Assembly: GCF_000682675.1 (NCBI RefSeq)
Contig: NZ_AWFA01000010.1
Span: 1-64,000, forward strand
Direction of reading: 5' to 3'
DNA: 64,000 bases
Source of the DNA: Hyphomonas pacifica
GTDB taxonomy: Bacteria > Pseudomonadota > Alphaproteobacteria > Caulobacterales > Hyphomonadaceae
Shown: positions 5,050 through 27,474 of the stretch, one piece after another
Position numbering within the stretch: position 1 is the first letter of the stretch
Layout of the letters: each line of letters starts with the position of its first letter
The notes under the pieces: model-generated
What the model was told of the DNA's origin: nothing
The model's input: only the letters and a program-made list of their open reading frames with translations
The model's database searches: none
Program-made: the position numbers and the translations under genes

Positions 5050-6276
5050 TCATGCGAAGTGAAGACGGCGATACTTGCCATTAAAATAAAGGAGGGGATC
5101 GCGTCTGGGGTCGAATTTTGCCCTCATCACCTCACCTATCAGAATGATATGATCTCCGCCCTTATGGACCGCATGCCGCCGGCATTCAAAATTCGCCAGT
5201 GCTCCAGAAAGTAGCGGAACATCATGCTGGCCAGTCTCCCAGGGAGTTTGTGAGAACCGGTCTTCTCCGGGCTTGGCAAAGAGGTTCGAAGTCGGTTGCT
5301 GACCGATATGCAGTACATTGACAGCAAAGGTTTCTGCCTCCTCCAGCGCAGCGCGACTCTTCGACGTATTCGCAATACAGACCAGCAGCAGAGGCGGGTC
5401 GAGGGAGACCGATGTGAACGAATTCGCGGTCAGCCCGATTGGCGTTCCATCTGCGGCCTTTGCCGTCACAACTGTCACGCCGGTGGCAAAGCAGCCCATC
5501 GCATCGCGCAGCGTCCGCGCATCAGAACCTGAGCGATATTCCGGCACCGAACGTGGCACGCGTCTCTCCAGAAAATCCAGAAGAGTCGCGTTGAACAGAT
5601 CAGCAGAATCTGTCGCGACCACGTGGCCTGCTTCGCTGACTTCGGCATATTCCGCATCGGCAAAGCGCCCGGCAAACCGGCCTGCCTCTTCGGCGGGCGT
5701 AATCCGGCTGAGCGCACCGCGCACGAACAGAACCGGCAAGCGAATATCACTGGCCGCAGCCTGAACTCTGTGGACCAGGTCATTAGAATGGAACGTCTCT
5801 TGAAAGCGCGGATCAAATCGCCCCGACGACAAGGCTGCTTCCGCAACGGTCTTGATAGCCGCATCAGACCTTTCGGCAGAGCCGGTTTCGGAATCAGGCG
5901 GTGCATCGACCAGAACCAGACCAGATGCCAGATGCGCGCCATCTTCGCCGATCGCTGCGGTCGCAATCCAGCCCGCCAGAGATGAAGCCACCACAACGGG
6001 CCGCGAAGCCATCTGCGCCAGAACGCAGCGAAGGTCTTCAACACAGGCGTCAAAATCATAGCGACCATCTTCGGGCCATTCGCTTTCGCCATGACCGCGC
6101 AAATCCACTCTCAGAACGCGCCGACCTGCCTGACGTAGGGCATCGGCCACATCATTCCAGTCGTCCCGGCTCTGGCCCACCCCATGAACCAGAAGCACAG
6201 AGGGGTCGTTCTCATCACCGGAAACATCTCCTTTGAGAGCAACTCCGGCAAATCCCTTGAAACTGATGTCGTGCAT
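5050..6276 (-). CDS. Alpha/beta hydrolase-flavin reductase fusion protein
   Basis: This 408-residue protein joins two enzymes. Residues 1-240 form an alpha/beta hydrolase: oxyanion LLVHGVGQ, VDLRGHGESEW, an elbow ASSLA around Ser99 where GxSxG is expected, and a late SEAGH histidine. Residues 254-408 are a flavin reductase like HpaC (RDAMGCFATGVTVVT, LTANSFTSVSLDPP, ANFECR, GDHIILIGEV). HpaC-like reductases supply FMNH2 to monooxygenases. I chose the ATG at 6276 because AGGA lies 6 nt upstream. An in-frame ATG at 6312 would add 12 residues. No partner oxygenase is in the window. The flavin reductase part is clear, while hydrolase activity is uncertain because of the altered elbow. Confidence 0.85.
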   Translation of the reverse strand: MHDISFKGFAGVALKGDVSGDENDPSVLLVHGVGQSRDDWNDVADALRQAGRRVLRVDLRGHGESEWPEDGRYDFDACVEDLRCVLAQMASRPVVVASSLAGWIATAAIGEDGAHLASGLVLVDAPPDSETGSAERSDAAIKTVAEAALSSGRFDPRFQETFHSNDLVHRVQAAASDIRLPVLFVRGALSRITPAEEAGRFAGRFADAEYAEVSEAGHVVATDSADLFNATLLDFLERRVPRSVPEYRSGSDARTLRDAMGCFATGVTVVTAKAADGTPIGLTANSFTSVSLDPPLLLVCIANTSKSRAALEEAETFAVNVLHIGQQPTSNLFAKPGEDRFSQTPWETGQHDVPLLSGALANFECRRHAVHKGGDHIILIGEVMRAKFDPRRDPLLYFNGKYRRLHFA

Positions 6277-6419
6277 GAATTGTCCTGACTGAGCTTCGCG
6301 CTTCCCTTTCATTTATCCCGCTGACCCCAAGTGTCGAGAGCGGGCCTGTTGAGGCCTGCCAGCGCTTGCCGCTGCGGAGTATCTGGACAAGCCGTGTTCA
6401 GGGGCCGAAACTCGCCTTT

Positions 6420-9091: not shown

Positions 9092-10254
9092 TCCAGTGAC
9101 AGGCCAAGCTCTGCGAGAACTTCTTCCGTATGCTCTCCAATCCTCGGCGCAGGGCGGATTTCCTTTTTCGGCGCCCCGATAAAGTGTACCGGCGGCTGGG
9201 TTTCCCAATAGCCGCCTTCGGTTGGATGCTCTCGCCGCTGGAAGAAATTGACCGCCTTGAGGTGCGGGTCTTCCTGAAGGTCCGGGAAGTCATTCGCCTT
9301 GGCGGCAGGAATGTCCGCGCCGGCTAGCACCTCCAGCCAATGCTCCGTTGTTTGATCCTTAAAGTAGTGCTGAACCCGATCCATCATATAGTCCATGTTG
9401 AAATAACGGCCGCGATAATCATTGATGCGTTCGTCTTCAAGCTCCTGCGGTGCGCCAATCACATCGAACAGTTTGACCCAGCGCGCGTCTACATAAGGCG
9501 CGATGACGATATAACCATTGGACGTTTTCAGCGGCTGCCGGCACGGGTCCACCTGGCGCTGGTAGCAGAATGGCCCGACAGCCGGATCGAAGACCGCCTC
9601 ATAGAAATGCTCTTCCAGCAGGAAGTGCGTGATGCATTCAAACATCGGCACTTCGACATGCACGGCCTCACCTGTCCGGTCCCGCTGGCGCAGGGCAGCA
9701 AGCGTTGCGTAGACGGCATGCAAGCCTGAGACCTTGTCGGCAAAAGCGGTCGGGATGAAGCGCGGACGCTCATTGCCGTCTACCTTTGGCAACAGCATGG
9801 TCGCGCCGGACAGGCCCTGGATCAGGTCATCATAGGCCGGGCGCCCCGCATAAGGCCCTTCCGAGCCAAAGCCGACGCAATGGACATAAACGATATCCGG
9901 CTTGATCTTCTTCACCTCCTCAAAAGTGAGGCCGAGGCGAGCCACAGCATCGGCGCGGATATTGTGGATGAAGACATCGCTGTTTTGGATCAGCTTGCGG
10001 ATGGCGGCCTGCCCTTCATCAGATTTCATGTCCCAGACCACAGAACGCTTGCCGCGATTCATGGTCAGGTGGCACGGCCCCATACCCTTGGTGTTGGCAG
10101 GCTTGCCGACATTGCGGAAATCATCGCCATTTTTCGGTTCGACCTTAACCACTTCAGCCCCCATGTCTGCCAGGGTCTGCGTGCAGTACGGGCCGAAGAT
10201 GACGGTCGTCATATCGGCGATGCGCAGGTCAGACAGGACATTCGTTGCGGGCAT
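9088..10254 (-). CDS. CaiB/BaiF family (family III) CoA-transferase
   Basis: The 388-residue protein belongs to the formyl-CoA transferase/CaiB family. The N-terminal LSDLRIADMTTVIFGPYCTQTLADMGAEVVKVEP is characteristic. SVVWDMKSDEG, FIHNIRADAVARLGL, the FGSEGPYAGRPAYD loop and C-terminal PAPRIGEHTEEVLAELG follow. The catalytic Asp expected in this family is probably in the RPAYDDLIQGLSG segment. The start at 10254 is fixed by GGAGG seven bases upstream. These enzymes move CoA between carboxylic acids, often before beta-oxidation. The acid is unknown. The position beside two esterases and an SDR suggests activation of a product of ester cleavage. Confidence 0.9.
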   Translation of the reverse strand: MPATNVLSDLRIADMTTVIFGPYCTQTLADMGAEVVKVEPKNGDDFRNVGKPANTKGMGPCHLTMNRGKRSVVWDMKSDEGQAAIRKLIQNSDVFIHNIRADAVARLGLTFEEVKKIKPDIVYVHCVGFGSEGPYAGRPAYDDLIQGLSGATMLLPKVDGNERPRFIPTAFADKVSGLHAVYATLAALRQRDRTGEAVHVEVPMFECITHFLLEEHFYEAVFDPAVGPFCYQRQVDPCRQPLKTSNGYIVIAPYVDARWVKLFDVIGAPQELEDERINDYRGRYFNMDYMMDRVQHYFKDQTTEHWLEVLAGADIPAAKANDFPDLQEDPHLKAVNFFQRREHPTEGGYWETQPPVHFIGAPKKEIRPAPRIGEHTEEVLAELGLSLD

Positions 10255-10393
10255 GTGGTTTCCTCCGGATTTTTCCTGCTCATAATGCGGTTGTCGCTGG
10301 GACAGACAAGACGTTTCGCGTGATTGATTGGCCTGCACCTGTATCCGCGCCCTCTGGTGAAGGCACGGCAGATGGCGTGATTGCGAGGCTCGC

Positions 10394-10993
10394 TCAGCTG
10401 GTATTCCAGGCATCCTGAAGCCGCGCGCGGATCATGCCTGGCAAAGCCGCCGACACAATGCCGAGTTCCGGCCGAAGGCGGAACGCGCTGGCAAGGGGCA
10501 AAACGTGCGGCACAGGCTCTCCCTTCTCTCTTTGCCGAGCGATGGCGTGCGCCAGGCGCTTTGCATGAGTATCCGGGTCTTTCAGGACACGATAGAGCGC
10601 CGCAAGGCGTGCGAGAAAAGGCGCTGCCGGAATCGGCTGGCCATCTCGGAATGGCATCTTCTGGGGCAGCGCCCCCGTCGCAACAGCCACCTTCTTTGCA
10701 GACAGGGCAAAGCGACGCTGGGCGGGAAAGGAAACGATCTCAGCCCCTTCCGGCAATTGGCGTGGATATGTCTGGCGCGAGACCTGCCGCTCAGGCAGGC
10801 CTAGCATCAGCGCCATCAGGTAGAGCAAACGGCGAACAATGGTTTCAAGTTGGGACAATCGACCTGACGCGCGCTGTTTCAGGCTACGTGGCAAGGTTTT
10901 CGGCTGCAGCTGTGCGTTCGTCATGCCAATGATGTTGGTCAGGGCATAACGCGCCTGTTCAAAGCCTTGATTGATGAAGTCTGGATTGCTCAT
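10394..10993 (-). CDS. Conserved-looking hypothetical protein
   Basis: I do not recognise this 199-residue protein. It is rich in Arg, Ala and Leu. A hydrophobic segment near residues 55-66 (RRLLYLMALMLGL) may be membrane-associated, but no signal peptide is visible. A long amphipathic region follows (LARLAALYRVLKDPDTHAKRLAHAIARQREKGE), and the C-terminus repeats the Arg/Leu-rich pattern. The ATG at 10993 has only a weak ribosome-binding site. It lies between the CoA-transferase gene and the glycosyltransferase gene, all on the minus strand. Length and absence of a competing frame favour a real gene. Confidence 0.55.
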   Translation of the reverse strand: MSNPDFINQGFEQARYALTNIIGMTNAQLQPKTLPRSLKQRASGRLSQLETIVRRLLYLMALMLGLPERQVSRQTYPRQLPEGAEIVSFPAQRRFALSAKKVAVATGALPQKMPFRDGQPIPAAPFLARLAALYRVLKDPDTHAKRLAHAIARQREKGEPVPHVLPLASAFRLRPELGIVSAALPGMIRARLQDAWNTS

Positions 10994-11073: not shown

Positions 11074-12039
11074 TTACCAGGGATAGGCATACCATTTCGG
11101 ACGCATGCCGACGGCGATCAGCAAGCGATCTGCCATGGCATCTATAAAGTCCAGCACGGTGGGACGCGCATCCAGCCTGTCCAGCCGGGTCATATGCTCT
11201 TCCCAGATCTTGCCATTCTCATCCTCACGCCGCAGCGCGATCAGTCGGCGCAGATAGTGGCGCTTGTAATGCTGGAGGATGGTGCGGCCGTCATCCTCCG
11301 GAAAGGCCACGGCGGCATAGCGCAGAAGGTAGTGATACCAGTCCAGAAGGTGCAGACGTTTCGGCGCAACGAAGCGGGAGGTCACCGTGTCTTCGTGAAC
11401 GCGTGTATTGGCAATGTATTCATGGACAAAACCAAATCGCCATTTCGTCAGTGTACGCAGGACTGAGTCCGTATCGAAGGCATTCACACAGGAATCGAAA
11501 TAGACACCATCTTCCGGAATGGCCTTCACATTGACTAGCACATGCGGAGCGCGGAAATGGCCCTGATTGAGAAAGAAGCGGCGAATGGCTTCCTTGCCCT
11601 CCATAACTGCAAGCCCGTCAGGCCATTGGTAAGTTTCCAGATCCCCACCATAATTGACCTTGCACGCCACAAGGCCAATCTGGTCATCCAGTTGGGCCAC
11701 CTGCATCATCTTTTCGATGGCATCTGGCGTCATGGTGTCATCGGCACATAGCAGGCGAAACCATTCCGCGCCTTCAGGCAGATGGGCGAAAGCGGAGTTC
11801 CAGTTTTCCACCTGAGGCAGCAAATTCTCGTGCCGTACGACTTTGACGGGAACACGGGCGTTCTCAAACTCGGCAATGATGCTTGCCGTAGCGTCAGTTG
11901 ACGCATTCTCAATGACCAAGTGTACCAGATTTGGCCAAGTTTGCGCCTGAACACACTCCATTGTCTCACGCAAATAGGCTTCGGCATTGTAAGCTGGCGT
12001 AATCACGGTTACGAGCGGGTAAGCGGCGGGGTCACTCAT
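11074..12039 (-). CDS. Glycosyltransferase family 2
   Basis: The 321-residue protein begins with a GT-A nucleotide-sugar fold: VTVITPAYNAEAYLRETMECVQAQTW, then VIENASTDATASIIAEF, and a DxD-like metal site in RLLCADDTMTPDAI. The C-terminal half has conserved-looking aromatic clusters but no transmembrane helices, so it is likely cytoplasmic or membrane-peripheral. It opens the polysaccharide locus and is divergent from the acyltransferase-FkbH-ACP set across a 171-bp gap. Donor and acceptor sugars cannot be read from sequence. UDP-glucuronate or UDP-xylose from the downstream genes are possible donors. Confidence 0.88.
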   Translation of the reverse strand: MSDPAAYPLVTVITPAYNAEAYLRETMECVQAQTWPNLVHLVIENASTDATASIIAEFENARVPVKVVRHENLLPQVENWNSAFAHLPEGAEWFRLLCADDTMTPDAIEKMMQVAQLDDQIGLVACKVNYGGDLETYQWPDGLAVMEGKEAIRRFFLNQGHFRAPHVLVNVKAIPEDGVYFDSCVNAFDTDSVLRTLTKWRFGFVHEYIANTRVHEDTVTSRFVAPKRLHLLDWYHYLLRYAAVAFPEDDGRTILQHYKRHYLRRLIALRREDENGKIWEEHMTRLDRLDARPTVLDFIDAMADRLLIAVGMRPKWYAYPW

Positions 12040-12210: not shown

Positions 12211-12834
12211 ATGAACAAAGATGAAAATCACTCAGATACGTGCATGGACGAGCCGGTCCTGTACGGACCTGACCTGATTGGCAAGCATGGCTTCTGGACG
12301 ATCCTGAAAGAGGATTATGCGGCAAATAATCGCCGCTGGGCCGAGCCAGGCTTTCGCGCGGTGGCCGTGCATCGCTTTGGCACATGGCGCAAAGTGATCA
12401 AATTTTCCCCGCTGCGCAAGGTGATGGGCTTGCTCTACTATTTGATGAACCACCGTGTACGTACAGTGTACGGGATTGAGCTGCACGATACCGCAAAGGT
12501 GGGCCGTCGGCTGGTGATTGCGCACCAGGGCGGCATTGTGATCCACCGCCATGCAACAATCGGCGATGACTGCATGATCCGCCAATGTGTAACGATTGGT
12601 GCAGGCGCAACCTATGACATAAGCGAAGCCCCTGTGCTGGGCAGCCGCGTGACGCTGGGTGCCGGTAGTGTCGTGATCGGACCGGTCCAGCTGGGCGATG
12701 ACACCAAGGTCGGCCCCAATGCTGTAGTGCAGACCCATATCAAGCCGGGCTCAACCGTCTTTGCGCCAGCCTCCCGCGTGATTACCATGCCTAAGCCGAA
12801 ACCGGCACCAACACCTGTCCAGGACGTCGAGTAG
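12211..12834 (+). CDS. Serine O-acetyltransferase-like hexapeptide acyltransferase
   Basis: The 207-residue protein has an N-terminal helical part (residues 20-75) like that of CysE and a left-handed beta-helix built from hexapeptide repeats (about 90-175: LVIAHQGGIVIHRHATIGDDCMIRQCVTIGAG and VTLGAGSVVIGPVQLGDDTKVGPNAVV). The C-terminus is Pro/Lys-rich. It looks like CysE, but its placement one base before an FkbH-like gene and an ACP gene argues for acyl transfer to a sugar or a carrier-bound unit instead of cysteine synthesis. I chose the ATG at 12211. An earlier GTG is in frame at 12160. The acyl donor is unknown. Confidence 0.8.
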   Translation: MNKDENHSDTCMDEPVLYGPDLIGKHGFWTILKEDYAANNRRWAEPGFRAVAVHRFGTWRKVIKFSPLRKVMGLLYYLMNHRVRTVYGIELHDTAKVGRRLVIAHQGGIVIHRHATIGDDCMIRQCVTIGAGATYDISEAPVLGSRVTLGAGSVVIGPVQLGDDTKVGPNAVVQTHIKPGSTVFAPASRVITMPKPKPAPTPVQDVE

Positions 12835-12835
12835 A

Positions 12836-14821
12836 ATGACCGCATCAGACAAGCTGGCCGAAGCCGCTGCCCTGAAACGCGAAAAGAATTACCAAGGCGC
12901 CATCGCCGCCTATGACGCGGCGCTCGCCAATGTCGAAGCACCCGATGAGAAAACCTGCCTGGCGGTCGCACAATGTCATGCTGGCACGGGACAAAAGGAC
13001 AAGGCCCTTGACTGGCTGGCACTGCTGACCCGTGGCGGAGATGACTTCCCCGCCTGGCAAGCCGCCAGCGGCCTGTTGCGCAAATTGCTGAAGGACAATC
13101 CCGGCCTTTCCGCGCCGCATGCCAAGCGGACGGGGCGCGTGTGGCTGACCGGCAGCTATACGCTGGCCCAATTGGCGCCGTTACTGCAGCTGGCCGCGCT
13201 GGCCGTAAATGTGAATATCGAAGTGGCTGTTGCCGATTATGGGCAGCATCGCCAGGACGCGCTGTCGCCCGATTCACAGATGTATGCTTTTGACCCGGAC
13301 GTTATCGTGATCGCCCTGCACCATAGCGATCTGGAACGATCCGTCAGTGATCTGTCTGTTCAGGAAACTGTCACGGAAGCAACGCAGGATGTCTCGATGA
13401 TCTGGCAGTCCATCCGCCAGAACTGCAAGGCGCGCATCCTGTGCACCAATATTGCCGCACCACTGGATGAAGCCTTCGGGCACCTGTCTTCCCGCGTGCC
13501 GGAAAGCCGCCGCACGATCATTCATGCAGTGAATAATGATTTGGCCCGAAAGGCGAATGAGCTGGGTGGCGTCACGCTGGTGGATGTCGAGGCAATATCA
13601 GCCCAAATCGGTAAGCGCGCTTGGTTTGATGATCGCTACTGGCACCTCTCCAAGCAAGGCGTCAGCTTTAAAGCCCTGCCTCTGCTGGCGCGTCATATGG
13701 CGGCGCTTATCGCAGCCGAGTTCGGGCTGACGAAGAAATGCCTCGTGCTGGATTTGGATAATACGTGCTGGGGTGGTGTGATCGGGGAAGACGGGCTGGC
13801 AGGGATCAAGATCGGCCAGGGGGATGCAAAGAGCGAAGCCTTCCTGGCTTTCCAGATGGCTGTGAAGCGCCTGCAACAGCGCGGCGTCATTCTGGCAGTC
13901 TGCTCCAAGAACAATGATGCCGATGCACGCGAGCCGTTCGAGAAACATCCGGACATGGTGCTGAAGCTGGACGATTTCGCCATGTTCGTCGCTAACTGGA
14001 CGAACAAGGCCGAGAACATCAAACATATAGCCAAGACGCTGAATATCGGCCTCGACAGCCTGGTCTTTGCTGATGACAATCCGGTCGAACGCGCAACGGT
14101 TCGCGAGCTTGTGCCGGAGGTGGACGTGCTACCGATGCCGGAAGACCCGGCCGGTTATGTGCGCGTGCTGGGCGACTATCTCGGCTTCGAGACGGTCAGC
14201 TATACGCGAGAAGATGCCAACAAGACCGAGCAATACCGGGCCAAGTCCCGCATCGCGGAGATGCAGGCGACGACGGCCTCCCTGCCTGACTTCTACAAAT
14301 CCCTGCACATGAAGGCCGAGATCGAGCCATTCAACGACTTCAATATGCCGCGCATCGTGCAGCTGATTGGCAAGTCCAACCAGTTCAATTTGACGACCTA
14401 TCGCTATTCGGAGGCCGACATTCGCGACTTCATGCAACAGGATGGTGCGGTGAACCTATCCCTGAAACTGGCCGACAAATTTACTGACCACGGGCTGGTC
14501 AGCATGATCATGGCGCGACTGGTGGAAAGCGCGATGGACATTCACCTATGGCTGATGAGTTGCCGGGTAATCGGGCGCACGGTGGAAGATGCATTGTTGG
14601 GAGAGCTGTGCCTGCAGGCCCGTGCGCAAGGCCTGAAGAAGCTGCGCGGGAGTTACATTCCCACCGCCAAAAACGCGCTGGTTGAAACGAAATATGCCGA
14701 TTTCGGATTTGATTGCATCGCAAAACTGGACGACGGCAAGACAATTTGGGAATACGACATTGAAAAACAGGGCGATATTTCGAGCCCCTATATTGCTGTC
14801 AATACACGCGTTGAGGCCTGA
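12836..14821 (+). CDS. FkbH-like HAD-superfamily protein with TPR-like N-terminus
   Basis: The 661-residue protein has four parts: a TPR-like helical start (1-90), a segment like the SGNH-type N-terminal region of FkbH proteins (100-290), an HAD-IIIC domain with motif I DLDNT (Asp306, Asp308, Thr310) and a VFADDNPVERATV motif, and a GNAT-like C-terminus (about 500-640: FTDHGLVSMIMARLV, RVIGRTVEDALL). FkbH proteins take the glyceryl group from 1,3-bisphosphoglycerate, remove phosphate and load glycerate onto an ACP. The ACP gene follows after 2 bp, matching that chemistry. Glycerate as the unit is inference from the family. The product is likely cytoplasmic. Confidence 0.85.
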   Translation: MTASDKLAEAAALKREKNYQGAIAAYDAALANVEAPDEKTCLAVAQCHAGTGQKDKALDWLALLTRGGDDFPAWQAASGLLRKLLKDNPGLSAPHAKRTGRVWLTGSYTLAQLAPLLQLAALAVNVNIEVAVADYGQHRQDALSPDSQMYAFDPDVIVIALHHSDLERSVSDLSVQETVTEATQDVSMIWQSIRQNCKARILCTNIAAPLDEAFGHLSSRVPESRRTIIHAVNNDLARKANELGGVTLVDVEAISAQIGKRAWFDDRYWHLSKQGVSFKALPLLARHMAALIAAEFGLTKKCLVLDLDNTCWGGVIGEDGLAGIKIGQGDAKSEAFLAFQMAVKRLQQRGVILAVCSKNNDADAREPFEKHPDMVLKLDDFAMFVANWTNKAENIKHIAKTLNIGLDSLVFADDNPVERATVRELVPEVDVLPMPEDPAGYVRVLGDYLGFETVSYTREDANKTEQYRAKSRIAEMQATTASLPDFYKSLHMKAEIEPFNDFNMPRIVQLIGKSNQFNLTTYRYSEADIRDFMQQDGAVNLSLKLADKFTDHGLVSMIMARLVESAMDIHLWLMSCRVIGRTVEDALLGELCLQARAQGLKKLRGSYIPTAKNALVETKYADFGFDCIAKLDDGKTIWEYDIEKQGDISSPYIAVNTRVEA

Positions 14822-14823
14822 TC

Positions 14824-15057
14824 ATGTCTACTGAAACCCGTTTGAATGAAGTCTTCCAGACTGTTTTCCTGGATGATGATCTGGAACTGTCAGATGATAT
14901 GACCGCCGCGGATGTCGACGGATGGGACAGCCTGGCCCACATCAATCTGATGTTTGCGATCGAGCAGGAGTTCGGCTTTCAGTTCCCCGGAAACGAGCTG
15001 GCCGAGCTGCCGAATATTGGCGCGTTGAAAGCCTTTATCGACAGCAAGACCCGCTAA
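14824..15057 (+). CDS. Acyl carrier protein
   Basis: The 77-residue acidic protein is a stand-alone carrier protein. The phosphopantetheine attachment site is Ser36 in DVDGWDSLAHINLM, and a helix with FAIEQEFGFQFPGNELAELPNIGALKAFI follows. It starts 2 bp after the FkbH-like gene, so the two are almost certainly translated together. It probably carries the three-carbon or acyl unit made by that protein. It is not the fatty-acid AcpP: the DSL motif lies in a different surrounding sequence and no fab genes are next to it. It converges on rfbC. Confidence 0.93.
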   Translation: MSTETRLNEVFQTVFLDDDLELSDDMTAADVDGWDSLAHINLMFAIEQEFGFQFPGNELAELPNIGALKAFIDSKTR

Positions 15058-15064
15058 CGCATCT

Positions 15065-15610
15065 TCATGCCTTGAAAGCTGATGCTTTATAGTCTGCCCA
15101 GGACGCATCCTTGTCTGACAGCACCGTGACCGGCACCGGCCATTCAATACCGAAGGCCGGGTCATCATGGCGCGCGCCGCGCTCTGCTTCTGGTGCGTAG
15201 AATTCCGACACGAGATAGCTGACCTCGGTATCATTCAGCAGAGTTTGGAAGCCGTGAAGGAAACCTTTCGGGATGTAGAGCTGATCCTTGTTTTGCTCAG
15301 TCAATTCAAAGCCCTGCCATTTAAGATAGGTCGGGCTGTCCGGGCGGATGTCTACGATCACGTCAAAAATCGCGCCGCGGACGCAGCGGATTACTTTCAC
15401 TTCGGCGCTTGGCTCAATCTGGCAGTGCATGCCGCGCAGCGTGCCCTGCTCAGCCGAAACAGACATGTTCTGGTTTACAAAGCGGGTTTCCAGGCCATGG
15501 GCGGCGAACTCATTGATGCAGAATGTCCGGGCAAACATGCCCCGCTCGTCCCCGCGCGCCTCCAGCTTTATCAGGAATGCGCCCAATAGATCTGTCTTGT
15601 GAAACAGCAT
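15065..15610 (-). CDS. dTDP-4-dehydrorhamnose 3,5-epimerase family protein (RfbC-like)
   Basis: This 181-residue cupin belongs to the RfbC/RmlC family. Visible family features are the early GAFLIKLEARGDERGMFARTFCINEF strand, the active-site TLRGMHCQ with its histidine, VKVIRCVRGAIFDVIVDIRPDSPTYLKW, and LYIPKGFLHGFQTL. AGAGGA lies nine bases before the ATG. RmlC epimerises 4-keto-6-deoxy sugars. No rfbA, rfbB or rfbD is in the window, and a cytidylyltransferase lies next door, so the substrate may be another NDP-4-keto sugar. The strand is opposite to both neighbours. Confidence 0.85.
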   Translation of the reverse strand: MLFHKTDLLGAFLIKLEARGDERGMFARTFCINEFAAHGLETRFVNQNMSVSAEQGTLRGMHCQIEPSAEVKVIRCVRGAIFDVIVDIRPDSPTYLKWQGFELTEQNKDQLYIPKGFLHGFQTLLNDTEVSYLVSEFYAPEAERGARHDDPAFGIEWPVPVTVLSDKDASWADYKASAFKA

Positions 15611-15721
15611 GTAAACTTATCCTCTACTAGATGATCGCAGATTGATTGCCTGTGCGGGTGGGTTCAAGCTTAAAACTGGAACAATGTCTGCATAACCGGA
15701 CAGACAAAGGGAGACATTTTC

Positions 15722-16498
15722 ATGAAAGTCCTGATCCTTGCCGGTGGATTTGGTACGCGCCTCAGCGAAGAAACGACGATCCGTCCGAAACCTATGGTGG
15801 AGGTCGGCGCCCGTCCCATTCTGTGGCACATCATGAAAAGTTACTCCCATTACGGTTTTAACGAGTTCGTCGTTTTGGGCGGATACAAGGTTGAATTCAT
15901 TCGGGATTACTTCCTGAATTACACCCGCACCTCCAGCGATTTTACTGTGGATTTGCAAACCGGGGAACTGGTCTGGCAGCGCCATAACGCCGAGCCGTGG
16001 AAGGTGACGGTGCTTGATACCGGCGCAGATTCCATGACTGGCGGGCGTATTCGCCGCGCGCGCGAGATTGTCGGAGATGAAACATTCTGCCTGACCTATG
16101 GCGATGGTGTCTCGGATGTGGACATCGCCAAGCTGGTCGAGTTCCATAGAGAGAAAGGCATGGCCTGCACCGTGACAGCCGTTGTGCCGCCTGGCCGCTT
16201 TGGTGTGCTGGCCTTTGACGAGTCCGGCGAAAAGGTCGAGGCCTTCCGCGAAAAGGACAAGGAAGATGTCGGCATGATCAATGGCGGCTTCTTTGTCTGT
16301 GAGCCATCTGTCTTCGACCTGATCGACGGGGACGATACGGTATGGGAACAGGAGCCCCTGCGCAGGCTGGTCGATGCCGGCCAGCTGGCAGCCTATCGCC
16401 ATCGCGGCTTCTGGCAGGCTATGGACACGCTGCGTGACCGAAACGTGTTGGAACAGCTGTGGGAGAGCGGCAAGGCCCCGTGGGCTCCGTGGCTCTGA
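15722..16498 (+). CDS. rfbF: Glucose-1-phosphate cytidylyltransferase-like nucleotidyltransferase (RfbF family)
   Basis: The 258-residue protein opens with the nucleotidyltransferase signature LILAGGFGTRLSEETTIRPKPMVEVG. IRDYF, the LTYGDGVSDVD metal region, and a C-terminal GFWQAMDTLRDRNVLEQLWESGKAPW that matches glucose-1-phosphate cytidylyltransferases are visible. The reaction is CTP plus glucose-1-phosphate giving CDP-glucose. GGGAG precedes the ATG by eight bases. The usual partner, CDP-glucose 4,6-dehydratase (RfbG), is not next to it. The SAF-domain oxidoreductase follows after 194 bp. The sugar could be glucose or a related hexose phosphate. Confidence 0.88.
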   Translation: MKVLILAGGFGTRLSEETTIRPKPMVEVGARPILWHIMKSYSHYGFNEFVVLGGYKVEFIRDYFLNYTRTSSDFTVDLQTGELVWQRHNAEPWKVTVLDTGADSMTGGRIRRAREIVGDETFCLTYGDGVSDVDIAKLVEFHREKGMACTVTAVVPPGRFGVLAFDESGEKVEAFREKDKEDVGMINGGFFVCEPSVFDLIDGDDTVWEQEPLRRLVDAGQLAAYRHRGFWQAMDTLRDRNVLEQLWESGKAPWAPWL

Positions 16499-16692
16499 AT
16501 TGATGTCGGAAAGCCATTAGAATGCGGATCCTTTTGAGACAGAAAGATCAAGCTTTGCCTCATTCGTGCAAGAAGTTCTGAATACACGACGCTTCCATTT
16601 GACAAGCGTTTAAGGATGGCCGTTTTAGTCAGTCAGACCCTGACAATCCGGGCATGTTTCTTGCTTTGGGATTGTGCCTCTGGAGTATACTC

Positions 16693-17985
16693 ATGATCAT
16701 TGTCGATACCGCTCTCGCAAAACGCGCCGAGGAACTGAAACCTTTGCAGGTCGGTCTGTTCGGTGCAGGCTTCATGGCCAAGGGCATCGTCAACCAGGTA
16801 ACGCGCTACACACCGGGTATGCGGATCGCCACGATCTGCAACCGCACACTGAGCGCCGCCCGTGACGCCTACCATGTAGCCGGAGTGCCGGATGACATGA
16901 TTGTCGAGTGTACGACCGCTGCGCAGCTGGACGACGCGATCCGCGCAGGCAAGTTCGCGATCACATCGGACATCCAGGTTATGGTCGAGGCCGCAGGCAT
17001 CGAAGTCGTGATCGAGTCAACCGGCCATGTCGAATATGGCGCCAAGGCCACGATCGCCTCCATCAATGCCGGCAAGCATATGGTATCCATGAATGTAGAG
17101 CTGGACGCAACGGTTGGCTCCATCCTTAAGGACAAGGCCGACAAGGCAGGCGTCATCTTGTCAGGTTGTGACGGTGATCAGCCGGGCGTGCAGATGAACC
17201 TGTTGCGCTATGTGCAGACGCTGGGCCTGAAGCCCCTGCTCTGCGGCAACATCAAGGGTCTGCAGGATCGCTATCGTAACCCGACCACACAGGCCGCCTT
17301 TGCCAAGCAATGGGGCCAGACACCTAACATGGTCACCTCCTTTGCGGACGGCACCAAAATTTCCATGGAGCAGGCTATTGTCGGCAACGCGACCGGCATG
17401 AAAGTGGCGCAGCGCGGCATGATTGGCATCGAATACAAGGGCCATGTCGACGAGATGGTCGACATGTACGATCTGGACCAGATGCGCGAACTGGGCGGGA
17501 TCGTCGACTATGTCGTCGGCGCGAAACCTAGCCCTGGCATCTATGTATTCGCCGAAGCGCAGGACAAAACCCAGGCGCATTATCTGAATTATGGCAAGCT
17601 GGGCGAAGGCCCGGTTTATTCCTTCTACGTACCATGGCATCTTACGGCCTTGGAGGTTCATATCTCGGCTGCGCGCGTAGCCTTGTGCACTGACACCGTC
17701 ATCGCGCCGATTGGCCGACCGACAGTCGAATGCGTAGCCAGTGCGAAGATTGACCTCAAGGCTGGCGAGACGCTGGACGGGCTGGGCTATTACATGACCT
17801 ATGGCCAATGCGAAAATTACGACACGGCCGTTGCCGAAAACCTGCTGCCCATGGGGCTGGCAGAAAATTGCAAGCTGAAGCGCGATGTTCCGAAGGATCA
17901 GGTTCTGACCTGGGACGATGTGGAAGCGCCGACAGACAGCCTGTCTCATGCGCTGCGCGCTGAGCAGGACGCTCTCTATAATTGA
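16693..17985 (+). CDS. NAD(P)-dependent oxidoreductase with C-terminal SAF domain
   Basis: The 430-residue protein has an N-terminal Rossmann fold of the homoserine-dehydrogenase-like type (VGLFGAGFMAKGIVNQV, then VESTGHVEYGAKATIASINAGKHMVSMNVELDATVG) and a C-terminal SAF-like part (about 330-415: KIDLKAGETLDGLGYYMTYGQCEN). The middle has LSGCDGDQPG and DLDQMRELGGIVDYVVGAKPSPG. GGAG seven bases upstream fixes the ATG at 16693. Such proteins are often found in sugar-modification clusters, but the reaction is not well defined. It lies between rfbF and the epimerase-like gene and probably acts on the same nucleotide sugar. The substrate is unknown. Confidence 0.8.
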   Translation: MIIVDTALAKRAEELKPLQVGLFGAGFMAKGIVNQVTRYTPGMRIATICNRTLSAARDAYHVAGVPDDMIVECTTAAQLDDAIRAGKFAITSDIQVMVEAAGIEVVIESTGHVEYGAKATIASINAGKHMVSMNVELDATVGSILKDKADKAGVILSGCDGDQPGVQMNLLRYVQTLGLKPLLCGNIKGLQDRYRNPTTQAAFAKQWGQTPNMVTSFADGTKISMEQAIVGNATGMKVAQRGMIGIEYKGHVDEMVDMYDLDQMRELGGIVDYVVGAKPSPGIYVFAEAQDKTQAHYLNYGKLGEGPVYSFYVPWHLTALEVHISAARVALCTDTVIAPIGRPTVECVASAKIDLKAGETLDGLGYYMTYGQCENYDTAVAENLLPMGLAENCKLKRDVPKDQVLTWDDVEAPTDSLSHALRAEQDALYN

Positions 17986-18014
17986 TGGTTGATTAGACTG
18001 ACGGGACACCACTC

Positions 18015-19124
18015 ATGAAAACCGCAAACGATATTGTGCAGGAAGACCTGGCTGACATTGGCGACCGTCTGTCTACAGAATTTGGTGAAATGGCAGGAAA
18101 AAAGCTGTTGATTGTCGGCGGCGCCGGCTTTCTTGGCTATTATCTGGTACAAGCCCCACTGGCCTGGAACAAGACCGGCAAGGGCGCACCGATTGACGTG
18201 ACCGTTTATGACAACTGGATCCGGGGAAAGCCTGACTGGATACAGGTGCTGGAAGGCGATGAGCACCTCAAATTGGTTACGCATGACATCACCCATCCGA
18301 TGCCGGAAGATGCGGAAGACTTTGATTACATCATCCACGCCGCCTCGATTGCCTCTCCGATCTATTACCGGAAATACCCTATCGAAACGATGGATGCGAA
18401 TGTCGATGGCCTGCGCCACCTGCTGAACTTCGCGATGAAGAAACAAGCCGCCGGCAATCCGCTGTCAGGTTTTCTGTTCTACTCCACGAGCGAGATCTAT
18501 GGTGATCCGACACCGGAGAATATTCCGACACCGGAGACCTATCGCGGCAATGTCTCCTGCACCGGCCCCCGCGCATGTTATGATGAGTCCAAACGCTATG
18601 GTGAAACGCTGTGCGTGAACTTTGCGCGTCAGCATGGCCTGCACATAACGATTGCCCGCCCGTTCAATAATTATGGCCCGGGCCTGAAGATCACCGATCG
18701 CCGCGTGCTGCCGGACTTTGCCCGCGATGTGTTCGAAGGTCGTGACATCGTGATGCTGTCTGATGGCTCTCCGACGCGCACTTTCTGCTACATCGCGGAT
18801 GCGATTGTCGGATACTACAAGGTGCTGGTCAAAGGCGAGCCAGGCGAGAGCTACAATATCGGGACGGATGCGGAAGAAGTCTCGATGGCAAAACTGGCCG
18901 ATGAAGTTGTGAAGGTCGCCACAGCGAACTGGGACTATAAAGGACAGGTCATCCGGAAGACCTCCAGCGACAAGGAATATCTGACCGATAATCCAAACCG
19001 CCGCTGCCCCGTCATTGACAAAGCCCGCAGCCAGCTTGGCTATGAGCCGAAAGTTCATTTCGAAGAGGGCCTTGAACGCGCCCTGATCTGGTATTCCGGA
19101 AACATGGTGGCAGAGGACGCCTGA
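18015..19124 (+). CDS. UDP-glucuronate decarboxylase-like NAD-dependent epimerase/dehydratase
   Basis: This 369-residue extended SDR has the NAD motif GGAGFLG (35-41) and the catalytic Tyr189 and Lys193 in GPRACYDESKR, a sequence context characteristic of UDP-xylose synthase. HDITHP and ASPIYY, also shared with that family, are present. The final third includes SPTRTFCYIADAIVGYY and YNIGTD. The next gene, starting 1 bp later, is UDP-glucose dehydrogenase, which makes UDP-glucuronate, the substrate of UDP-xylose synthase. A 26-residue N-terminal extension precedes the Rossmann fold. UDP-xylose formation is likely but not proven, since other NDP-sugar epimerases share the fold. Confidence 0.8.
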   Translation: MKTANDIVQEDLADIGDRLSTEFGEMAGKKLLIVGGAGFLGYYLVQAPLAWNKTGKGAPIDVTVYDNWIRGKPDWIQVLEGDEHLKLVTHDITHPMPEDAEDFDYIIHAASIASPIYYRKYPIETMDANVDGLRHLLNFAMKKQAAGNPLSGFLFYSTSEIYGDPTPENIPTPETYRGNVSCTGPRACYDESKRYGETLCVNFARQHGLHITIARPFNNYGPGLKITDRRVLPDFARDVFEGRDIVMLSDGSPTRTFCYIADAIVGYYKVLVKGEPGESYNIGTDAEEVSMAKLADEVVKVATANWDYKGQVIRKTSSDKEYLTDNPNRRCPVIDKARSQLGYEPKVHFEEGLERALIWYSGNMVAEDA

Positions 19125-19125
19125 T

Positions 19126-20460
19126 ATGAAAGTATCCGTAATCGGCACAGGCTATGTTGGTCTCGTTTCCGGGGCCTGCCTATCGCACTTGGGGCATACA
19201 GTCGTTTGCGTGGATGTCGATCCGCGCAAGGTCGACATGATCATGGAAAAGAACCCGCCCATCTATGAGAAGGGCCTTCAGGAATTACTGGACGAGAACG
19301 TCCCTGCGCGTCTGACCGCGACGACAGATTTGCGCAAAGCAGTGCTGGAGTCCGACCTGTCGCTCATCGCTGTCGGCACGCCCTTTGACGGCCAGATTAT
19401 TGACCTCAAATACATCCGTCAGGTCGCAAAGGAAATCGGCGAAGCCCTGAAGGACAAACCTGATTATCACATGGTTGTCGTGAAGAGCACAGTGGTGCCC
19501 GGCACAACGACCGATGTGGTTCTGCCCATTCTGGAAGAGGCGTCAGGCAAGACGGCTGGGGTTGATTTCGGCGTTGGCATGAACCCGGAATTCCTGCGTG
19601 AAGGCGAAGCGATCGAGGACTTCATGCAGCCTGACCGGATTGTGTTCGGGGGTATTGATGAGCGATCCATCGACTCCCTTGCGGCCCTCTATGAGGTGTT
19701 CGACAAGTCAGACAAGGTGCGCACCGATCCGCGCACGGCGGAAATGATCAAGTACACGGCGAACTCGCTACTTGCGACTCTGATCTCCTTCTCCAACGAG
19801 ATTGCCAATCTCTGCGCTGCACAGAAAGTTGATGTGGCTGAAGCAATGCATGGTGTTCACCTGGACCGCCGCTTCTCACCCATCCTGCCGTCGGGTGAGC
19901 GCGTTTCACCTGGCTTTGTATCCTATGTCTGGCCAGGCGCGGGTTTTGGGGGCTCATGCTTCCCGAAGGATGTGAAGGCGCTTGTGGCGCATGGCGAAAA
20001 TGGCGGCGTGCCGATGCAGCTGCTCAAATCTGTGATTGATGTGAACAATCGCCAGCCCCAGAAAATGGTGGACATGCTGGAGGATCGCCTTGGCGATATC
20101 TCCGGACGCAAGGTGACCGTACTGGGTGTAGCTTTCAAGCCGGGCACGGATGACATCCGCGAGAGCCCTGCCATCCCCGTTATTCGTCAGCTTGCAGATA
20201 AGGGCGCCCTTTTGACAGCCTTTGACCCGATCGCAAGACATGAAGCGGAGCGGGAACTGGGCGACAAACTTAGTTTCCGCGACACGCTGGACGAGGCCAT
20301 TGCAGATGCCGAAGCGATCCTAATCATGACAGCATGGCCTGAATTCAAGGCCCTGCCGGAGATGATATCGAAACTGCCTGGCGCGCCCCTCCTTGTGGAC
20401 GGGCGCAGGATGATCGAAAAGGACAGCGTGCCAAACTATGCCGGCATCGGCCTTCAGTAA
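19126..20460 (+). CDS. ugd: UDP-glucose 6-dehydrogenase
   Basis: The 444-residue enzyme oxidises UDP-glucose to UDP-glucuronate with two NAD. An N-terminal VIGTGYVGLVSGACLS fold, MNPEFLREGEAIEDFMQPDRIV, the catalytic Cys278 in GAGFGGSCFPKD, and a C-terminal VLGVAFKPGTDDIRESPA domain are all intact. A few extra residues lie just before the cysteine loop (ILPSGERVSPGFVSYVWP). It starts 1 bp after the decarboxylase-like gene, suggesting coupled translation and a UDP-glucose to UDP-xylose route for the surface polysaccharide. Confidence 0.95.
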   Translation: MKVSVIGTGYVGLVSGACLSHLGHTVVCVDVDPRKVDMIMEKNPPIYEKGLQELLDENVPARLTATTDLRKAVLESDLSLIAVGTPFDGQIIDLKYIRQVAKEIGEALKDKPDYHMVVVKSTVVPGTTTDVVLPILEEASGKTAGVDFGVGMNPEFLREGEAIEDFMQPDRIVFGGIDERSIDSLAALYEVFDKSDKVRTDPRTAEMIKYTANSLLATLISFSNEIANLCAAQKVDVAEAMHGVHLDRRFSPILPSGERVSPGFVSYVWPGAGFGGSCFPKDVKALVAHGENGGVPMQLLKSVIDVNNRQPQKMVDMLEDRLGDISGRKVTVLGVAFKPGTDDIRESPAIPVIRQLADKGALLTAFDPIARHEAERELGDKLSFRDTLDEAIADAEAILIMTAWPEFKALPEMISKLPGAPLLVDGRRMIEKDSVPNYAGIGLQ

Positions 20461-22707: not shown

Positions 22708-23531
22708 TATCCTCCCCCCCCCCTTAAAACTGGGCCAAGTTGAGCCTGGTGGTTTAGGCGGTTCAGGAGGTTTTTTTATGGCTAGGAAGCGATATTCAGA
22801 TGAGGACGTGCTGCGGCTGTGACGTGAGATAGAGGTTTTGCTTGCAGAAGGTCTTGATGTAGTGAGTGCGTGACGCAAGGCACGTGTCGGATGCGACCTT
22901 TTATAACTGGCGCAAGAAGTTTGGTGGGGTTGGGCGCACGCAACTGGCCGAGAATAAAGCTCTGGAGAAAGAGAATGCGCGGCTGGAGCGGATCGTGGTG
23001 GATCTGGAACTGGACAAGCTGATCCCCCAAGAGACACTTGATTACCTAAAGCCCAAGGCCTGAAGCCCGCTGAAGTGCGTCAGGGCGTGATCCATGTGCG
23101 CCAGAGGCTCGACACCTCACAGAGCGGCGCGCCTTCAGGCGGTCGGCATGGCGCGCTCTACACAGCAGTACAAAGCCCGCAAGGCAGACGATGATGAAAC
23201 GCTGCGCCTGGCCATGATACACATTCGATCTGACAATGGCCCGGAGTTTGTTGCCTCAGGCCTGCAGGACTGGCTGGTACGTGTGGGTATCCGACCGTTG
23301 CATATCTATACCGGGAGCCACCTTGGAAAAGGGGTACAATGAACGCTTCGAACGACCCCTCAGGCGAGAGGTGCTGAACGCTGAATGGTTTACCTCACTC
23401 CACCAGGCCCAGACCGCCATCAACACCTGGCTCAGACAATACAATCGTGTCCGGCCTCACCAGACCCTCAGCATGCGACACCCGCGCCAGAAACTCGATT
23501 GCAAAATGGCCCATAAACTGGGGGCTGGACA
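22708..23531 (+). mobile_element. Degenerate IS3-family insertion sequence
   Basis: This 0.8-kb stretch is a decayed IS3-family element. Intact members are about 1.2-1.3 kb, so a large part is missing. The right end, read inward on the minus strand, is TGTCCAGCCCCC then GTTTATGGGCCATTTTG. The left end has a comparable run with ten Cs, then TTAAAACTGGGCCAAGTT, so imperfect inverted repeats remain. Inside lie an orfA and an orfB remnant with stops, frameshifts and a central deletion. I see no target-site duplication. It is bounded by pabBC on one side and tRNA-Gly on the other. Confidence 0.75.
22778..23063 (+). pseudogene. IS3-family transposase OrfA remnant
   Basis: The frame starts MARKRYSDEDVLRL after an AGGAGG site and hits two in-frame stops within the first 35 codons. 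It then shifts into a frame that reads HVSDATFYNWRKKFGG and AENKALEKENARLERIVVDLELDKLIPQETLDYLKPKA, the helix-turn-helix and leucine-zipper parts of a typical OrfA. It is nonfunctional. Confidence 0.75.
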
Positions 23532-23541
23532 CGGAGGCTAG
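23064..23541 (+). pseudogene. IS3-family transposase OrfB remnant
   Basis: Pieces of the DDE integrase survive: the N-terminal AVGMARSTQQYKA, then HIRSDNGPEFVASGLQDWL (the third catalytic-region motif) and NERFERPLRREVLN plus WLRQYNRVRPHQTL from the C-terminus. About 100-130 residues carrying the first catalytic aspartate are deleted between the N-terminal part and the SDNGPEF segment. A frameshift near 23320 separates the two halves of the C-terminal domain. It is nonfunctional. Confidence 0.75.
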
Positions 23542-23647: not shown

Positions 23648-23722
23648 TGGAGCGGGCGATGAGATTCGAACTCACGACCCCAACCTTGGCAAGGTTGTGC
23701 TCTACCCCTGAGCTACGCCCGC
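23648..23722 (-). tRNA. tRNA-Gly (anticodon GCC)
   Basis: On the minus strand the acceptor GCGGGCG pairs with CGCCCGC. The anticodon stem CAACC/GGTTG encloses the loop TTGCCAA, so the anticodon is GCC. The T arm GAGTTCGAATCTC is normal. CCA is encoded after the discriminator T. It stands alone beside the IS3-family remnant. Confidence 0.95.
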
Positions 23723-26472: not shown

Positions 26473-27474
26473 ATGCAGTCTTCAGACAAAACAGACGAAA
26501 AGAGATGGCTCGGCCGTTTCAGTAATATTGATGCCATAACGGGACTTTGCGTACTCGCAGTGTTCCTTTTCGGGATTGCAGCCGCGTTCTCTTCCAAAGA
26601 CACTCGTAATCTCACCGTCGTGGCAGACGTGCCCATTTACTATCCTGTCGCACCTCCAGAGGCTGCGCCTGCGCCGTCAGATGCCGCGGATAAACTGGCA
26701 CCAGAGGCTGCGCCTCAGCCCGCTCCTGCGCCGGACCAGCCCCAGGCAAAGCAACTCGCCAATTCTAGCCCGGCCTTTATCTCGCTCTTGGGAGACGATC
26801 GTCTTGAGGCCTCTTACTATCTATCCCAGAGCAAAGCCCCTCGGGACTTTTATGGTGGCCGTTGGGCCCCCGAAAACATTGAAAGCACCGCAAATGGCAC
26901 AACGTTCAGCGTGAAGAAGGAGGGCAATACAGACGTGCCCTTCTCGATCGCGGAGGCCAGCACTTACAAGCGCTATGGCTATGGGCGCTATGAAGCGATC
27001 ATGCAGATTGGCAAGGGATCAGGCCTCGTATCTGCTTTCTTCACCTATACCGGCCCCTATTTCGGGGACCCGCATGACGAAGTGGATATCGAGTTTCTGG
27101 GTAAGGACACGACCAAGATCCACTTCAACTACTGGCGCAATGGAAAGCGTGGCAAGTTCGCCACCTTCGATCTGCCCTTTGATGCCTCTGAAGGCCCACA
27201 CCTTTATGCGTTCGAATGGCTGCCGGACCGCATTACCTGGTACGTCGATGGCGTGCCCTATTATGCGAGCGAGCTGAATGACCCCTTCATTCCCAAAACA
27301 GCCGGGAAGGTTCATTTCAGTCACTGGACCGGCATTCCCAAGATGCGGGAATGGCATGGCAAGCCTGATTTCGGTACTGAGGCTGTCACGACAGTCAGCT
27401 GCTCGTCTTTCACCCCCATGGGCGAAGACAAACGGTCTTGCAGTGATGTCTACAAGGAAAAGAAAAACTCCTGA
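26473..27474 (+). CDS. Membrane-anchored GH16 family glycoside hydrolase
   Basis: The 333-residue protein has a transmembrane segment near residues 22-40 (GLCVLAVFLFGIAAAF), a Pro/Ala-rich linker (about 55-95), and a GH16 jelly-roll catalytic domain. The catalytic motif ExDxE is present as DEVDIEF, with the two glutamates as nucleophile and acid/base. YKRYGYGRYEAIMQIGKGSGLVSAFFTYTG and DRITWYVDGVPYY are typical. GH16 enzymes cut or rearrange beta-1,3/1,4-glucans and galactans. The anchor suggests action in the periplasm on exported polysaccharide. The substrate is unknown. Confidence 0.88.
   Translation: MQSSDKTDEKRWLGRFSNIDAITGLCVLAVFLFGIAAAFSSKDTRNLTVVADVPIYYPVAPPEAAPAPSDAADKLAPEAAPQPAPAPDQPQAKQLANSSPAFISLLGDDRLEASYYLSQSKAPRDFYGGRWAPENIESTANGTTFSVKKEGNTDVPFSIAEASTYKRYGYGRYEAIMQIGKGSGLVSAFFTYTGPYFGDPHDEVDIEFLGKDTTKIHFNYWRNGKRGKFATFDLPFDASEGPHLYAFEWLPDRITWYVDGVPYYASELNDPFIPKTAGKVHFSHWTGIPKMREWHGKPDFGTEAVTTVSCSSFTPMGEDKRSCSDVYKEKKNS

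Follow-up and report, generated by a model that had tools for sequence, protein, structure and literature searches.

What does an FkbH protein do when it stands between a putative sugar acyltransferase and a run of sugar-nucleotide genes? In PKS/NRPS pathways, FkbH domains act on 1,3-bisphosphoglycerate, loading it and removing its phosphate, which leaves a glyceryl thioester on a carrier (PMC8949500, PMC7489565). The question is raised by a locus of Hyphomonas pacifica lying in the 64,000-nucleotide stretch of contig NZ_AWFA01000010.1 that was analysed as a whole (the window). Here, a CysE-type left-handed beta-helix (LbH) acyltransferase (AT), an FkbH protein, and an acyl carrier protein (ACP) are encoded side by side. 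Our reading is that together they make up a glyceryl-transfer cassette, in which FkbH loads the ACP and the LbH AT hands the glyceryl group to a sugar; we give it a probability of roughly 0.55.

Organization of the Locus

The trio lies on one strand with gaps of 1 bp (AT–FkbH) and 2 bp (FkbH–ACP), exactly where a preliminary description of this DNA had placed it. The assignments made there of a hexapeptide acyltransferase and of a dedicated ACP with Ser36 in a DSL motif agree with the profile matches in Table 1. In comparison with the sister species, the dN/dS values are 0.11 (AT), 0.10 (FkbH), and 0.03 (ACP), and all three genes are therefore maintained under purifying selection.

Table 1. 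Features of the trio and its neighbourhood (window positions).
Feature	Position	Strand	Evidence
GT2 glycosyltransferase, divergent neighbour	11074..12039	-	PF00535, 72 bits
LbH acyltransferase (AT), CysE/WcaB-like, 207 aa	12211..12834	+	Hexapep PF00132, 47.3 bits
FkbH protein, 661 aa	12836..14821	+	TIGR01686, 288.4 bits; FkbH_N
TPR-like N-terminal helices of FkbH, residues 16–77	12881..13066	+	TPR_19, borderline; predicted helices
HAD-IIIC phosphatase and GNAT-like tail (TIGR01686 FkbH domain)	13730..14713	+	motif DLDNTCWGG
Acyl carrier protein (ACP), 77 aa	14824..15057	+	PF00550, 29.8 bits (cut-off 20.8)
Ser36 codon of ACP, 4'-phosphopantetheine site	14929..14931	+	sequence and alignment
RmlC-type NDP-sugar 3,5-epimerase	15065..15610	-	TIGR01221, 173 bits, above cut-off
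Glucose-1-phosphate cytidylyltransferase (RfbF)	15722..16498	+	TIGR02623, 395 bits, above cut-off
DRL-type oxidoreductase, SAF-like C-terminus	16654..17985	+	PF21135, 171 bits; SAF, 20.4 bits (cut-off 21)
NDP-sugar epimerase/decarboxylase family SDR	18015..19124	+	PF01370, 145 bits
UDP-glucose 6-dehydrogenase-type nucleotide-sugar dehydrogenase	19126..20460	+	TIGR03026, 428 bits, above cut-off

The surroundings are more modest than the surface-polysaccharide locus originally proposed. They comprise a single GT2 gene and five sugar-nucleotide genes in a short run, flanked on either side by ordinary metabolic genes (hydrolases, an SDR, and a CoA-transferase on the left; a PabB–PabC type protein on the right), and a complete polysaccharide locus at this site is ruled out by these flanks. 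The locus shows no gene for a flippase, a polymerase, or chain-length control, nor any aminotransferase or export gene, nor any dehydratase, KAS, PKS, or NRPS gene. The only Wzz-type protein of the genome is encoded on another contig, beside an apparent outer-membrane barrel and a glycosyltransferase fragment. In one relative (L175) the same sugar module adjoins such export machinery (identities read from the sequence, part of which was scanned), and in another (L178) a similar GT2, recognized by eye, adjoins this module.

Homologues of the DRL-type oxidoreductase occur in 16 of the 105 genomes of the family; among the other 15, the sister species alone has the trio. Conservation of the trio together with the sugar-nucleotide module is ruled out by this count (1/15), and the trio is therefore accessory. 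The RfbF–RmlC–DRL oxidoreductase–epimerase–Ugd module itself (15065–20460) possibly leads to a CDP-linked unusual sugar. Elsewhere in the window, one ORF fuses an alpha/beta hydrolase to a flavin reductase domain (5050–6312), insertion-sequence transposase fragments with an rve_3 integrase core (22866–23541) lie near a tRNA-Gly gene at 23648, and a secreted-looking GH16 glycoside hydrolase is encoded at 26473–27474.

The FkbH Protein and Its Carrier

FkbH matches TIGR01686 over residues 299–626, far above the NCBIfam cut-off of 146.65, and the Pfam FkbH_N profile over residues 117–289 (65.5 bits, cut-off 27), while the TPR_19 match at residues 16–77 (24.8 bits) falls slightly below its cut-off of 25. 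The HAD residues D306/D308 (DxD), K391, and D413/D414 (DD) are intact and invariant across seven aligned proteins, as are C302 and C576. An AlphaFold model built from seven sequences (mean pLDDT 80) places five confident N-terminal helices (predicted at 3–15, 19–29, 38–50, 54–64, and 71–87; pLDDT about 82–94) before FkbH_N, the HAD domain, and the GNAT-like tail. The top Foldseek match of this model is 3slr, BF1531 of Bacteroides fragilis; the matches ranked after it are mostly GNAT acetyltransferases that cover the tail. Since this tail is covered by the FkbH family model, it is ordinary for FkbH, and its reading as a separate acyltransferase is ruled out. The domain series of the preliminary description is thus retained, with the TPR part borderline, but not the GNAT-like tail as an addition to it.

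Because of family membership and the intact HAD residues, glyceryl loading of the ACP by this FkbH, the single one in the whole genome, appears well supported from sequence, as had been suggested. On the side of the carrier, Ser36 lies in a WDSL motif, whose W34 and S36 are invariant in the alignment of FkbH-linked ACPs (85/85).

The Acyltransferase

NCBIfam puts the AT among CysE, EpsC, and WcaB, under the curated cut-offs of both CysE and WcaB; against TIGR01172 (cysE) it reaches 94 bits, far below the 210.65 required. When used as a class-wide search probe, it returned almost exclusively CysE homologues, for which reason FkbH was taken as the probe instead. The window ACYLTRANSFERASE was compared in an alignment with 29 CysE homologues from the class (Alphaproteobacteria), none of which varies in the columns that correspond to E. 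coli D157, H158, R192, and H193. By E. coli CysE numbering, we take H158 to be catalytic and R192/H193 to be serine-binding. At these positions the AT has A104, H105, E139, and A140, and since the His is the only one of the four that is kept, it is not a serine acetyltransferase. This His is also the sole CysE-column residue left in the related proteins of an Acidimicrobiia genome and of the Chloroflexota locus L187 (both described below), and a new His (H112) in a Gly column of CysE is common to all three. The same changes might occur in sugar O-acetyltransferases that use acetyl-CoA, and they are therefore no proof of ACP use. The AlphaFold prediction of the AT (three sequences, mean pLDDT 52) was too poor for use.

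Distribution and Partners

FkbH was found in 5 of the 105 family genomes and in 26 of 385 genomes sampled from the class (E<=1e-60); a species-level genome collection, when scanned, yielded 80 loci. Of the first 85 loci, 81 contain an ACP match. The usual third partner is an MBOAT protein, encoded within 3 kb of FkbH at 63 of 124 loci (three of which also have an LbH protein). An LbH protein occurs there in the absence of MBOAT at 10 loci, the window and its sister included, and 51 loci have neither; some flanks in this count extend only 1.5 kb, and some LbH families may be missed. The arrangements include ACP–FkbH–MBOAT on a Rhodobacteraceae plasmid; MBOAT, one further gene, ACP, and FkbH on a pSymB-type plasmid of Sinorhizobium meliloti; and an FkbH–ACP–WcbI acetyltransferase operon on a Niveispirillum plasmid. 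Neither the whole window genome nor that of the sister species contains an MBOAT gene, and another genome of the family (G018) has three, one of them immediately after FkbH–ACP. Two genomes of one genus carry a distant FkbH together with a NodB-like polysaccharide deacetylase (L088, 3545–6084; L089, 5096–7632; identity read from sequence), and no ACP match was found near it.

The AT-type trio is present in three genomes only: those of the window, the sister species, and one member of the Acidimicrobiia, where the AT–FkbH–ACP order is the same, the genes overlap, the identities are 38–45%, and Gfo/Idh and Zn-ADH genes lie beside it. No further AT trio appeared on searching the phyla to which the chloroflexotan and actinobacterial relatives belong. 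Hence, the genome search did not return the three-gene order as a general set; what is general is the FkbH–ACP pair. The general system is FkbH–ACP with an exchangeable acyltransferase, of which the trio is a rare soluble-enzyme variant.

In a quick maximum-likelihood tree of 116 FkbH proteins (short search, SH-aLRT support), the window FkbH belongs to a group of six with a support of 99. The group is small and its internal branching is without resolution. None of its members occurs with MBOAT and five stand beside an LbH transferase, namely the three AT trios and two members from Chloroflexota that are accompanied by another LbH gene, an ACP, and a phosphopantetheinyl transferase; the sixth, from an actinobacterium, has neither partner.

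Fusions of ACP and Acyltransferase

ACP and LbH acyltransferase are joined in one ORF near FkbH at three loci, two from Chloroflexota and one from Bacteroidota, each a single metagenome-derived contig. In L187 (Chloroflexota, G761 contig 215), the fusion at 9756–10790 directly precedes FkbH and overlaps its gene start; residues 7–212 match NeuD/PglD above the cut-off and residues 229–301 an ACP (i-E 3.5e-19). The polysaccharide operon around it also holds a CysE-like LbH gene, a DegT aminotransferase, a CapD-type dehydratase, a priming sugar transferase, and AcpS, a gene content that would be expected for the N-acylation of an amino sugar. The L188 fusion has an ACP (profile i-E 2.9e-10) followed by a WbbJ-like LbH domain and abuts FkbH. 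That of Sediminibacterium (L044) has the same order, ACP then LbH, about 1.1 kb from FkbH, with an MBOAT gene also near. A fusion of another kind, of a methyltransferase and an ACP, follows FkbH in a member of the Saprospiraceae (L055, 7547–8725); it could be a maker of O-methylglyceryl-ACP, comparable to the dimethylglyceryl group of Campylobacter.

Four relatives of L187 (L211–L214, Chloroflexota) have a matching polysaccharide operon with NeuD, ACP, and KAS III, and with AcpS, an SDR, an AMP-binding enzyme, or FabD wherever the contig extends far enough; no FkbH was seen in these operons. They are apparently dedicated mini acyl-ACP pathways for a sugar. A fifth relative (L210) has NeuD, KAS III, ACP, and FkbH all together. 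Judging from these gene contents, it looks as if the loading module were exchanged ahead of a constant sugar acyltransferase in L187-type operons.

Proposed Mechanism and Alternative Explanations

In the proposed mechanism, FkbH would take the phosphoglyceryl group from 1,3-bisphosphoglycerate, its HAD domain would strip the phosphate, and the D-glyceryl group would be loaded on the phosphopantetheine arm of the ACP encoded next to it. From this carrier, the soluble LbH AT would pass the glyceryl group on to a sugar hydroxyl (or amine) in the cytoplasm before export, thereby replacing the membrane MBOAT that would serve FkbH–ACP pairs in many other bacteria. The acceptor would most likely be a nucleotide sugar or a lipid-linked sugar derived from the neighbouring CDP/UDP-sugar and GT2 genes; which of the CDP- and UDP-sugars of the module it might be is a guess. 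Three points of this scheme are inferences: the ACP thioester as the donor for the AT, an unmodified glyceryl group as the cargo, and a glycan as the acceptor. The AT is probably the transferase because the genome and the FkbH group of six lack MBOAT, because ACP–LbH fusions exist, and because the loading module appears to be exchanged. On the other hand, most LbH proteins of the AT type depend on acetyl-CoA, CysE-like sugar O-acetyltransferases such as WcaB may have lost the serine-binding residues as well, the trio is confined to three known genomes, the locus lacks aminotransferase and export genes, and the ACP-fused partner in L187-type operons is NeuD, not the CysE-like LbH protein. The ACP-dependent glycan decoration put forward in the preliminary description is strengthened by the ACP–LbH fusions, the FkbH–ACP–WcbI operon, the MBOAT partners elsewhere, and the MBOAT-free genome, but not in its acceptor, a putative glycan at a locus without an aminotransferase.

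In a possible but rather doubtful alternative, the LbH protein is an ordinary acetyl-CoA sugar O-acetyltransferase (WcaB-like) that shares the operon, while glyceryl-ACP is used by an enzyme elsewhere in the genome. It would fit the NCBIfam placement of the AT and the CysE-like LbH genes of Chloroflexota polysaccharide operons that showed no FkbH. It sits less well with the 1-bp gap between AT and FkbH, the same trio in two phyla, the ACP–LbH fusions near FkbH, and a genome without MBOAT as an alternative transferase.

Since the AT is of CysE ancestry and glycerate chemically resembles serine, the LbH protein might instead O-acetylate the 3-hydroxyl of glyceryl-ACP, and the acetylated acyl-ACP, or the product of its later elimination, would be used elsewhere. 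There is precedent in the tetronate pathways, whose clusters encode acetylation–elimination by an acetyltransferase and a dehydratase acting on the glycerate-derived unit (PMC7489565). Such cargo acetylation is nevertheless improbable: the CysE residues R192 and H193 that hold serine are replaced in the AT, the locus has no dehydratase, KAS, or PKS genes, and the other LbH partners are sugar acyltransferases of the NeuD/PglD or WbbJ-like kind. We attach a similarly small probability to a cassette that yields a small glycerate-containing metabolite and no glycan decoration. Although the FkbH proteins with described chemistry in the literature found belong to PKS/NRPS pathways, and metabolic genes make up the left flank of the locus, PKS, NRPS, and KAS genes are lacking nearby, sugar-nucleotide genes and a GT2 are the neighbours, and a related cassette is located in a polysaccharide operon.

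More broadly, FkbH–ACP with a soluble LbH AT may represent a way of glycerylating sugars that is a class of its own, with plug-in parts, an idea to which we give even odds. The AT would be interchangeable (CysE-, NodL/WbbJ-, or NeuD/PglD-type, the window being CysE-type), the ACP sometimes fused, and the loading module swappable within the same operon, with FkbH supplying glyceryl and KAS III/FabD/SDR supplying other acyl groups. The glycerate of bacterial surface glycans could then derive from 1,3-bisphosphoglycerate and not from a CoA ester, which would tie surface chemistry to glycolytic flux, and cytoplasmic LbH sugar acyltransferases would accept carrier-protein cargo besides fatty acids. 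The ACP–LbH fusions are small enzymes, amenable to testing, for glycan engineering.

Comparison with Known Systems

Glycerate-decorated glycans are already known, and FkbH–ACP decoration of surface sugars is probably a widespread but little-studied route. In the literature found, FkbH is mentioned in a polysaccharide locus for Campylobacter jejuni alone, where the fkbH-domain gene cj1302 lies among the flagellar glycosylation genes (PMC7099621); Campylobacter flagellin bears di-O-methylglyceryl pseudaminic acid (PMC3068675). A role of cj1302 in making this glyceryl group is plausible. An FkbH gene in a glycan locus and a sugar acylated with a glycerate-derived group are features shared with our proposal, while the sugar, the protein glycan, and the partners differ, and cj1302 is likened to the window FkbH by description, not by sequence. 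Native gellan carries L-glycerate on glucose (PMC9104527), likewise a glycerate ester on a bacterial polysaccharide; 1,3-bisphosphoglycerate, however, should yield D-glyceryl, and the literature found draws no link between gellan glyceryl genes and FkbH.

FkbH–ACP loading in PKS/NRPS systems (e.g., tetronate) resembles the window in an FkbH above the cut-off with an adjacent stand-alone ACP. The window differs in having no KAS, PKS, or NRPS, and in its LbH partner, sugar-gene context, and extra TPR-like N-terminus. In the FkbH–ACP–MBOAT(–SGNH) cassettes of Bacteroidota and Alphaproteobacteria, that of S. meliloti pSymB among them, FkbH and ACP are also adjacent and an acyltransferase completes the set; in the window this part falls to a soluble cytoplasmic LbH enzyme, in a genome free of MBOAT.

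CysE and the colanic acid acetyltransferase WcaB are the closest sequence families of the AT, which lies under the cut-offs of both and, unlike CysE, has lost the serine-binding residues. The functional parallel may be LpxA and LpxD, LbH acyltransferases with an acyl-ACP donor and a nucleotide-sugar acceptor. They share with the proposed AT the LbH fold and this kind of acyl transfer, while belonging to a different subfamily and handling long-chain 3-hydroxyacyl groups from fatty acid synthesis. Judging indirectly from the ACP–LbH fusions near FkbH, the window AT may work in the manner of LpxA and LpxD, with an acyl-ACP as donor and a sugar as acceptor.
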